DNA of 42,845 nucleotides from positions 1 to 42,845 of the forward strand of contig NZ_JAFIRA010000035.1 in assembly GCF_022848905.1 (NCBI RefSeq), read 5' to 3'. The notes beneath the pieces were generated by a model. The model had not been told where the DNA came from. It saw only the letters and a list, made by a program, of their open reading frames with translations, and made no database searches. This document shows positions 40,216 to 42,845 of the stretch, piece after piece. The translations under genes and the position numbers were made by a program. This DNA comes from Thermostichus vulcanus str. 'Rupite' (GTDB lineage: Bacteria > Cyanobacteriota > Cyanobacteriia > Thermostichales > Thermostichaceae). Within the stretch, counting starts at the first letter, position 1; every line of letters begins with the position of its first letter.

Positions 40216-40819
40216 TTGATCGTATTCGAGATGAAGACATGTACAATGTTGCTCATTCAGAATCTTGAGGAAAGTATTGAGATAAGCATGCGAAAAGGGC
40301 ATAATCAATATGTGACAGTTATCAGCAATCTAGAGAATCATTGCCTCATTGAGGTGATTGATGCTCACAAGGCGGAAGAGCTTACTGAATACCTAGAAAG
40401 CCTATGGACAGAGGAAGAGAGGCCGAATATCGAAAAGGTTAGCATCGATATTTGGGCTGGATTTGCCAGGGTAGTCAAGCCGGTATTTCCCAAAGCACAT
40501 ATTGTCTATGACAGATTTCATGTGATGCAGAAAGCTGTCAAAGAATTAGACAAACTTAGACGACAGTCTCGACTCATAGAAAAAGGCTCAAGAGGTTCAA
40601 ATAGTTGCATGGATGAAAGATGCTCGGAGAGTCTACACCGATGTGGTGAAAACAATCCAGAATCATCTTCAGGGAATCTGTCAGTATTTTGCCAATCGTG
40701 TGACCAGTGGCATTATGGAGGGAATCAACAACCGGATCAAGGTAATCAAGCGACAAGGGTATGGGTTTACCAACATGACTAACTTCAGAGCTAGATTATT
40801 AGCAGCTTTCTGGCCTTAG
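40216..40819 (+). pseudogene. Decayed ISL3-family transposase
   Basis: Two overlapping frames together encode parts of an ISL3-type DDE transposase. The first (to about 40600) has SMRKGHNQYVTVI, VSIDIWAGFARVVK with a catalytic Asp, and VYDRFHVMQKAVKELDK with the second Asp. After a frameshift near 40600, the second (from about 40613) has VYTDVVKTIQNHLQGICQYF and SGIMEGINNRIKVIKRQGYGF, with the catalytic Glu and the family-typical end. About 100 residues between the two and the N-terminal zinc finger are missing compared with a ~400-residue enzyme, so it is broken and inactive. Upstream bases 40060-40215 hold only traces. Confidence 0.78.
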
Positions 40820-40908
40820 TAATCCTTGATCACCATAAGTCCGGGAGAGCCTCACCCTTGAAGATGAATATGTCAGACATTTGTGCTGTCATGGTTCCTT
40901 CCTTCTAT

Positions 40909-40994
40909 GCCCAACGGTAAAGTTGTGCGGCGGCAAATAACCTTTGCAACACCACCAAGATCTTTCGCCCGTCCGCACTAACGCAGTGTTAGAC
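40909..40994 (-). other. attC-like recombination site after the MtrA-like gene
   Basis: An 86-bp imperfect palindrome on the minus strand, starting 17 bases after the MtrA-like stop. Its outer boxes are GTCTAAC (40994-40988) and GTTGGGC (40915-40909), matching the RYYYAAC and GTTRRRY attC boxes. Inside, the arms GTGCGG-A-CGG and CCGCCGCAC pair, with one extra unpaired base in the left arm (plus-strand T at 40972), the hallmark that sets attC orientation. The orientation fits the gene. No integrase gene is in the window. The sequence features are seen; site function is inferred. Confidence 0.72.
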
Positions 40995-41010
40995 TGCCGT
41001 ACATATATAA

Positions 41011-42141
41011 TTACAAGTCGTGAGAATATGTCTGATCTTGAACATACCTAAATCCCAGTTTCATCGACAGTTCTGCTTTTGCCAACTCCTCACCAAGATA
41101 GGCGGAATGATCTAGCTGAGTCACCCAACCATTTTCAATGATTGCCCAATAAATGCTTCTAGCATTTTTCCCTTCAATCGCCCTCAAGAGTGCGTTGTCG
41201 TATGAATAGTGTTCGACAAGAATGTTGCCCTTGTCAGGTTGTGGAAGAATTACGAAGTAACCTGTTTTATCCATCCGGAACTTTACAGGCTCCTTGGCTT
41301 GAAGGATAGTTGTGCTCGACGACTGTATTGCATCACTCTTACCCTGCTTTGTACAACCACAGGATGAGGATTGTGTTTGTGAGAGTGCTTGCATTTTCTC
41401 AATAATTTTCTCTGTATCTTCACAGCCAATTAGATCGACAACTTGTACCTGCTTCTGAAAAGCTTCTACCTCTTCGTAAGTGACATTCTTTAATAATGGT
41501 CGCTTACCAGGAGAACCAATCACTTTCATGCGATCATCTACTCCATTTTCAGCAAGCGCAAGTAGAGTTTTTCCGCTATAGTGCCCCTCTGAGTCTTTCC
41601 CTGTTAGTAACAAAAAACGAATCGTTGGGTTACTCACAACATTTTTGATAACCTTATCAACTCCAATGTTTTCTGTCTCAGTTTTCCCTACCACACAAAG
41701 TTCTTTAGGTTTAATATTTGCAAGTTGCTCAGCTAGCTCAACGCTAGCAAGTGTTGAAATTGCGACTGGGCAATCTTCACCGTGACAAAGCGCAAAGTAC
41801 TCTCCGGCAACTGGAAAGAGAACATTTTCTCGTACCTCGAAGCCACATCCTGATAAGTGGCTTTGAACAGATTCAGGGAAGGCTTGGTGGAACGAGTTAG
41901 TTGCTACGGCAGGAAAACAATGAGCGCAGCCAATACAGGGATACTGAATTGGCTCCATCTGATTTAACCAATGCTGAGTATCTCTAAGTAAATTCGAGGT
42001 AGTATCAGTCAGATTTGCGGATAGGGTCGTTTCCAAATTTTCTAGCATTTCCTTCATGCAGCCGCATTTCCGACATTTAGCAAAAGACATACCCTCCTGA
42101 AGTTCGGAGTGGATGTGGCTAATATGATTATCTTCTAGCAT
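41011..42141 (-). CDS. MtrA-like corrinoid domain fused to a DUF4346-like domain, with N-terminal cysteine cluster
   Basis: A 376-residue soluble protein in three parts. Residues 15-80 hold two cysteine clusters, C-X2-C-X-C at 23-28 and C-X2-C-X2-C at 69-75 (iron-sulfur or zinc). Residues about 105-250 match MtrA, the corrinoid subunit of methanogen methyl-tetrahydromethanopterin:coenzyme M methyltransferase: TLASVELAEQL, KTETENIGVDKVIKN, NPTIRFLLLTG and EGHYSGKTLLALAENG. His187 in EGHYSG falls at the place of the His that ligates cobalt in MtrA. Residues about 283-372 resemble DUF4346 (GYFVILPQPDKGN, ARSIYWAIIENGW, LGEELAKAE). Cyanobacteria lack this methanogen pathway, so a corrinoid methyl-transfer role in another pathway is the best inference. 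AGGAGGG precedes the ATG. AT-rich; an attC-like site follows. Confidence 0.85.
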   Translation of the reverse strand: MLEDNHISHIHSELQEGMSFAKCRKCGCMKEMLENLETTLSANLTDTTSNLLRDTQHWLNQMEPIQYPCIGCAHCFPAVATNSFHQAFPESVQSHLSGCGFEVRENVLFPVAGEYFALCHGEDCPVAISTLASVELAEQLANIKPKELCVVGKTETENIGVDKVIKNVVSNPTIRFLLLTGKDSEGHYSGKTLLALAENGVDDRMKVIGSPGKRPLLKNVTYEEVEAFQKQVQVVDLIGCEDTEKIIEKMQALSQTQSSSCGCTKQGKSDAIQSSSTTILQAKEPVKFRMDKTGYFVILPQPDKGNILVEHYSYDNALLRAIEGKNARSIYWAIIENGWVTQLDHSAYLGEELAKAELSMKLGFRYVQDQTYSHDL

Positions 42142-42164
42142 CGTTCCCTCCTGTTTTGTTACCC

Positions 42165-42186
42165 ACCACTATTTTGCAATAGTGGT
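42165..42186 (-). promoter_or_regulatory. 9-bp inverted repeat in front of the MtrA-like gene
   Basis: ACCACTATT at 42165-42173 pairs with AATAGTGGT at 42178-42186 across a 4-base centre. It lies about 12 bases upstream of the AGGAGGG ribosome-binding site of the MtrA-like gene, where a repressor operator or leader hairpin would act. AT-rich sequence further upstream could provide a promoter. Confidence 0.5.
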
Positions 42187-42219
42187 CAGACTTCAAGGAT
42201 ATAGGCTGTACAAATCAAT

Positions 42220-42384
42220 TTAACGCTGAACGCATAATATAAAGCCTTCACACCTCCACTGATAATCTTTAAGTTCCTTAATGCTGAACTCTGGCAGATA
42301 GTTTTGAAGCTGCGCCCCTACTGATAACTTAGGCGGTCTAACGTCTGAACTCACCTGCCACCAGGGATCCCTCACCACCGGCAA
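42220..42384 (-). CDS. Possible 54-residue small ORF
   Basis: Read from a TTG at 42384 to TAA at 42220-42222, with PWWQVSSDVRPPK and YLPEFSIKELKDYQWRC. Its ordered, mixed composition looks coding, and it lies between an attC-like palindrome and the MtrA-like gene. It has no recognisable ribosome-binding site and no family I know. It could be the remnant of a cassette gene. It contains one GGGATCCC copy, unlike the gene after it. Confidence 0.3.
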   Translation of the reverse strand: MPVVRDPWWQVSSDVRPPKLSVGAQLQNYLPEFSIKELKDYQWRCEGFILCVQR

Positions 42385-42436
42385 AAATCTAGCACAAGGT
42401 CAGCTGCAGTGACTTGTTATGTTGTGTCCCTACTCT

Positions 42437-42452
42437 CCCGATAATCATCGGG
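42437..42452. other. Small hairpin in the cassette region
   Basis: TCCCGAT-AATC-ATCGGGA is a perfect stem at 42436-42453. It lies in a stretch (42385-42516) that holds no supported gene and carries two GGATCC copies and the short GTTGTGTCCCTA motif also found in the dispersed repeat. Confidence 0.4.
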
Positions 42453-42516
42453 ATCCTCACTGACCAGCCCCCAGGGATCCCTTGCCCCAAAAGCCAGATA
42501 TTGACCGGGGCTGGCA

Positions 42517-42603
42517 ACATAACGGTTCGGGTCAGCGGTTGCCGTGATCTTTGCGTCCAACCCAAGCGGCTGCGGTCAATCCGCTGCACCCGAATTGTTA
42601 GCT
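42517..42603 (-). other. attC-like recombination site overlapping the HNH fragment
   Basis: An 87-bp imperfect palindrome. On the minus strand it runs AGCTAAC (42603-42597), a 2-base unpaired spacer AA, left arm TTCGGGTGCAGCGG, central 42 bases, right arm CCGCTGACCCGAA, spacer CC, and GTTATGT (42523-42517). The arms pair over 13 bases with one extra unpaired G in the left arm (plus-strand C at 42587). Paired boxes, unequal spacers and one extrahelical base are the attC plan. The end boxes are near but not exact matches to RYYYAAC and GTTRRRY. Confidence 0.75.
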
Positions 42604-42818
42604 GGCGGTTGAATCTTAGACCTACTCAACAAAACCTGAAGCTCTTCAATGCTCAACGGAGGAGAACGGCGATGAATCATGGCATGACAGTTAGGGCACA
42701 CAGGACGTAAATCTTTGAGGCTCTCCTGACATTTTGGTGTCGATAGTATAATGAGATACTGAGTTCCATGACGAACATTGGTTCCTCTTGATAAGTTATT
42801 GGGTCTTGCTGGAGTCAA
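42576..42818 (-). pseudogene. HNH endonuclease C-terminal fragment
   Basis: An open frame of about 80 residues whose middle, DLRPVCPNCHAMIHRRSPPLSIEEL, is the C-terminal part of an HNH nuclease (Cys-X2-Cys zinc site and the final His). The central His-His metal-binding part that should precede it is missing: the upstream residues (TPARPNNLSRGTNVRHGTQYLII) do not look like the family. The frame is open to the window edge at 42845, so the gene may be frameshifted, rearranged, or continue outside. Its last codons run into the attC-like site. Confidence 0.6.
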
Positions 42819-42845
42819 AATCCAAGAGTTTGTAGAGTTAGAACA

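Follow-up and report, generated by a model that had tools for sequence, protein, structure and literature searches.

The window, that is, the whole stretch of 42,845 nucleotides analysed, carries towards its end three consecutive attC sites, all on the same strand and within 1.7 kb, which bound two complete cassettes. The order of the array is a truncated HNH-like ORF, attC, a 181-bp gene-less cassette, attC, the MtrA/DUF4346 gene, attC, and a next cassette that is broken by an ISL3-type transposase remnant. The features are as follows, with bit scores and E values from the covariance model R1 described below:

42576-42845, minus strand: C-terminal part of an HNH-like ORF (cassette gene), with its stop codon inside attC-A and its 5' part cut by the repeat at the contig end
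42517-42603, minus strand: attC-A, with R'' AGCTAAC and R' GTTATGT; 72.4 bits, E 3e-17
42342-42522, minus strand: gene-less cassette of 181 bp, without evident gene; its ends match at 9/9 positions, and it recurs on contigs C2 and C1 and partly on C94
42336-42422, minus strand: attC-B, the attC of the gene-less cassette, with R'' ACATAAC and R' GTTAGAC; 39.1 bits, E 3e-8
40915-42341, minus strand: mtrA gene cassette, 1427 bp long and bounded by the G/T crossover points of attC-B and attC-1
42165-42186, no strand: 22-bp palindrome ACCACTATT-TTGC-AATAGTGGT, within the 200-bp mtrA leader
41011-42141, minus strand: coding sequence of 376 aa, with a Cys-rich N terminus, an MtrA corrinoid-type domain (PF04208) and a PterinBD-DUF4346 domain (PF14251)
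40909-40994, minus strand: attC-1, the attC of the mtrA cassette, with R'' GTCTAAC and R' GTTGGGC; 66.5 bits, E 1.2e-15; 14/14 motif positions and 7/7 core pairs
40853-40914, minus strand: start of the next cassette, which begins GTTGGGC and has an ATG at 40892 behind AAGGAAGG; cut by the transposase remnant after about 60 bp
40216-40852, plus strand: remnant of an ISL3-family transposase in two ORF pieces

Two of the three sites, attC-A and attC-B, are absent from the earlier sequence-only reading of this DNA. The HNH-like fragment matched PF01844 weakly (E 0.034), and the motif GGCTCTCCCGGA at 40841-40852 is, as judged by eye, what we take to be an ISL3-like end. The contig ends in a repeat (42719-42845) that is present at 13 other places. 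These recurrences of the last 127 bases lie mostly at contig ends, and their common length points to a k-mer of 127 in the assembly, at the end of an insertion element that is repeated.

The site directly behind the MtrA-like gene, at 40909-40994 on the minus strand, is a true attC. Its R'' (40994-40988) and R' (40915-40909) boxes fit the motif RYYYAAC/GTTRRRY at all 14 positions, as compared with 12/14 for attC-A and 13/14 for attC-B, and its core pairs throughout when G-U is allowed; the R' box is a property of the next cassette. The inner arms GTGCGG (40978-40973) and CCGCAC (40930-40925) are paired, and past them a TT/AA pair follows beyond one unpaired base of the 5' arm, A 40979, which occupies the same place as the extra G in related attCs. 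The loop is GAAAGATCTTGGTG.TGTTGCAAAG-like and is common to attCs of other genomes. The sequence-only reading had described exact outer boxes, arms that pair with a single extra base as in true sites and an orientation that agrees with the gene, and each of these points, including the exact coordinates and the strand, was borne out. A strict pattern GTCTAAC...GTTGGGC gave its sole match in the genome on contig C16, at an unrelated place, the gap limit of the pattern being too short for attC-1.

Because Rfam, searched at gathering scores over the whole window, matched a tRNA alone and no attC, we built a covariance model of our own. To this end, attCs were gathered near the intI genes of related genomes, and 13 of them, none from the studied genome, were aligned (alignment A3) and used to construct model R1. 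The paired columns of A3 had 87.6% of their cells paired, against 72.9% in shuffles, both sides had changed in 13 of the 22 pairs, the covariation was 0.414 as opposed to 0.148 in shuffles, and the pairing signal was lost when the partners were slid by one column. When applied to the window, R1 recognized three sites, all on the minus strand (72.4, 66.5 and 39.1 bits), and nothing besides these three attCs up to an E value of 10. The A3 covariation and the R1 alignments revealed in the window sites the imperfectly paired L''/L' arms with extra base(s) on L''. Genome-wide, attC-1 was matched with an E value of 1.0e-13, and seven sites were found at E < 1e-4, located on contigs C35 (three), C33, C94, C2 and C1. 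Thus, both the covariance-model match and the further attCs outside the window that the sequence-only reading had proposed to look for were obtained. The congeners G386 and G387, which gave zero R1 matches at E <= 0.001, served as a natural negative control, and this result argues against a composition artefact. A weak point of the integron reading is the low score of attC-B (39.1 bits).

In a true cassette, the start and R'' are complementary to each other, since the two meet in the circle. In the mtrA cassette, whose R'' is (GGCA)GTCTAAC, the start GTTAGACCGCC and the reverse complement GTTAGACTGCC of the R'' region agree at 10 of 11 positions, and in the gene-less cassette the start GTTATGTTG and the R'' region CAACATAAC are exactly complementary. 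This complementarity of the cassette ends therefore defines 40915-42341 and 42342-42522 as one cassette each. The stop codon of the mtrA gene (41011-41013) and the R'' box, which runs from 40994, are separated by a gap of 16 bp, as expected. The leader before the start codon, 200 bp, is long for a cassette, and the 22-bp palindrome within it is a possible candidate operator. The unit consists, hence, of a gene with one attC in the same orientation and a start complementary to its own R'', and because mtrA has an attC on either side, is in the right orientation and has matching cassette ends, it is a cassette.

The 181-bp cassette and its attC recur, whole or in part, on contigs C2, C1 and C94 and in the congener G177, with copies at L082:707-891, L083:4446-4652, L020:3097-3161 and L058:12868-13014. 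In the C1 copy, the match to the congener G388 ends where a chromosomal gene joins the 181-bp cassette. Near-copies of attC-B are present on C2 (95%) and C1 (83%), and attC-A is 82% identical to the attC of C33.

A search of the 120-contig assembly with TIGR02249 detected no intI, so the integrase sought after the sequence-only reading was not found, and none lies beside the array in this assembly. The best-scoring frame, on contig C24, was rejected as intI, with 38.5 bits against the TIGR02249 cut-off of 265, and is a Xer-like recombinase. Taking as CALIN at least two attCs that are less than 4 kb apart and have no adjacent intI, the three attCs of the window, with intI not detected in the assembly, constitute a CALIN. 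Above the curated cut-off, intI was present in 22 of 59 relatives, including the congener G388 (374.5 bits), whose gene is intact (1945610-1946542) and has a row of attCs on its divergent side. Two other congeners have kept remnants, a broken gene or pseudogene in G332 and a fragment in G177, and both adjoin chlH (a gene read by eye). In the studied genome, the contig with chlH stops about 320 bp upstream of this gene, in a repeat that recurs at the end of C94, another piece of the array. These data suggest that the platform was here disrupted by insertion sequences or is unassembled.

All of these results indicate that the locus is almost certainly the downstream portion of a chromosomal cyanobacterial integron that has been broken up, with the mtrA gene in a cassette of an attC cluster that lacks an integrase. 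As integron biology suggests, each attC would fold as a single-stranded hairpin and IntI would cut at G/TT of R'. An ancestor that had intI would have acquired the circular mtrA cassette through recombination of attC with attI (or with another attC), and insertion sequences would later have scattered and truncated the array to leave the present CALIN.

As a refinement of this explanation rather than an alternative to it, we give slightly better than even chances to the site being true but dead, i.e. to an old CALIN whose cassettes became immobile after the lineage lost intI. The assembly without a detected intI, the decay of intI in G332 and G177, the chlH contig ending in a repeat so close to this gene and the cutting of the array by transposase remnants are all in agreement with such a loss, whereas the draft assembly may miss intI, the attCs are still structured, and the start and R'' of both complete cassettes still match. 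The cassettes may no longer be mobile, with intI undetected in the assembly and the platform locus cut by repeats. From the proposal of the sequence-only reading that the MtrA-like gene is carried as a mobile integron cassette, the cassette was therefore retained, on the two attCs and the matching ends, and its current mobility was not, no intI having been detected.

It is very unlikely that the mtrA gene reached its place between two attCs, the attC itself being real, through another element and not by cassette capture. The transposase remnants near the gene, its long 5' leader and the close Pleurocapsales homologue without an attC would fit such an event, but a single circular unit should show the observed 10/11 match between start and R'', which a gene dropped between unrelated sites should not, and no transposase ends were observed on either side of the gene. 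Finally, the reading as an inverted repeat that resembles the attC boxes by chance, or as an ordinary hairpin between genes (e.g. a terminator) that does so, has practically no probability left, because, although attC-1 folded no better than shuffles (z -1.1, not significant, as its loop is long), minimum free-energy folding singled out neither attC-1 nor attC-B, and loose NNNNAAC/GTTNNNN boxes with pairing arms are frequent in the window, this reading is already refuted by the independent model, whose E value of 1.2e-15 was obtained without any sequence of this genome, and by two more serial sites with matching cassette ends, besides the 60 dinucleotide shuffles of the window, in which two scorers found no site equal to attC-1, and the conservation of the attC-1 loop in other genomes.

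The product of the mtrA gene scored 123.6 bits with PF04208 (gathering cut-off 25) and 79.4 bits with DUF4346 (PF14251; cut-off 29.6), and reached 117.6 of the 249.15 bits set as the cut-off of the mtrA equivalog TIGR01111. Chain position 84 of 5laa corresponds in the alignment to a His that four of the five sequences share, and the region around this cobalt-ligand His is conserved as GKDSEGHYSGKTLLAL. His84 is the lower cobalt ligand in the MtrA structure (PMC4915002). The protein therefore resembles the methanogen MtrA (PF04208; 5l8x, 5laa and 8q3v) in the sequence of the corrinoid domain and in the His84 region, and differs from it in scoring below the equivalog cut-off, in its DUF4346 fusion and Cys-rich N terminus, and in being encoded by a single cassette gene of a bacterium.

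In the mtrA coding sequence, the GC content is lower (0.424) than in the first 39.8 kb of the window (0.546), and only two of the 386 sampled genomes of the phylum, this one and the distant G343, where the copy lies among ordinary genes, contained a homologue at E <= 1e-20. A close homologue, 76% identical, is from Pleurocapsales cyanobacterium LEGE 06147, and the neighbours of its gene, read by eye, are two metal P-type ATPases, an ArsR-type regulator and a multicopper oxidase. Homologues with the same two domains and 35-37% identity are encoded on mobile or accessory replicons, i.e. Planococcus plasmids and a plasmid of Paraburkholderia sp. PGU19; unlike the gene studied here, they are not integron cassettes, the Planococcus one following ArsR/SmtB, a cation transporter gene and a heavy-metal P-type ATPase and the Paraburkholderia one being divergent from a MerR-type regulator (by eye). 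Beside the Pleurocapsales, plasmid and G343 homologues, R1 found no attC. The mtrA gene may thus have come from outside the lineage, and its product, instead of being a subunit of the Mtr complex as in methanogens, may be a soluble corrinoid protein with a link to heavy-metal stress. Judging from few neighbourhoods, a metal-stress role of the MtrA/DUF4346 protein is plausible. A more specific proposal, which we regard as speculative and rather improbable, is that of a metal-stress methyl carrier in which the fused corrinoid, pterin-type (methyl-folate) and Cys-rich parts would methylate or otherwise handle a heavy metal or metalloid. Such a carrier would spread between phyla on plasmids, next to regulators and pumps for metals, and within cyanobacteria as a cassette of an integron, equipped with an operator of its own.

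Integrons have been reported in Cyanobacteria since at least 2008 (PMC2426708), cyanobacterial integrons and CALINs have also been described in PMC8618304 and PMC9668308, and a Cyanobacteria-specific attC covariance model exists (PMC8352920). The array shares with these chromosomal integrons and CALINs the attCs of the 87-bp class with R''/L''/L'/R' and an extra base in L'', the serial cassettes in one orientation and, in a congener, the divergent intI; it differs from them in that intI was not found and in that its pieces are on several contigs and cut by insertion sequences. Loss of intI with retention of attC remnants is known from Treponema (PMC3607928). The gene content of the genome, with ndhI, ndhA, ndhH and chlH as read by eye, places the host in the Cyanobacteria. 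The integron is, hence, ordinary for Cyanobacteria, and only its cargo is unusual. In the literature searched, no MtrA or DUF4346 gene was found as integron cargo. The sequence-only reading had called the cassette a delivery route unfamiliar to it for this protein family; the family also has other routes, such as the Planococcus and Paraburkholderia plasmids. The cassette extends the known cargo of integrons by a corrinoid/pterin protein and shows one entry route of a rare family gene into a cyanobacterial genus, and its boundaries provide a clean gene unit for testing.

Other pieces of the arrays carry different genes. On C33 (L018:13451-13537), the lone attC (47.3 bits) behind a glyoxalase-like ORF has R' GATCGG instead of GTTRRRY, as though a secondary G(A/T)T site had received the cassette. 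On C94 (L020:68-2926), a 952-aa helicase-like ORF (Helicase_C; weak match to the Zn-binding domain of MrfA), cut at its 5' end by the repeat that ends the window, precedes an attC and is probably a defence gene. The array adjoining intI in G388 encodes a 714-aa Piwi-domain protein (G388:C1, minus strand, L054:11664-13808; 63.9 bits) and also holds HerA/NurA-like genes and a DNA methylase, and this integron seems to carry defence genes. In the window itself, the palindrome GGGATCCC is strikingly frequent over the whole length, within genes and between them.
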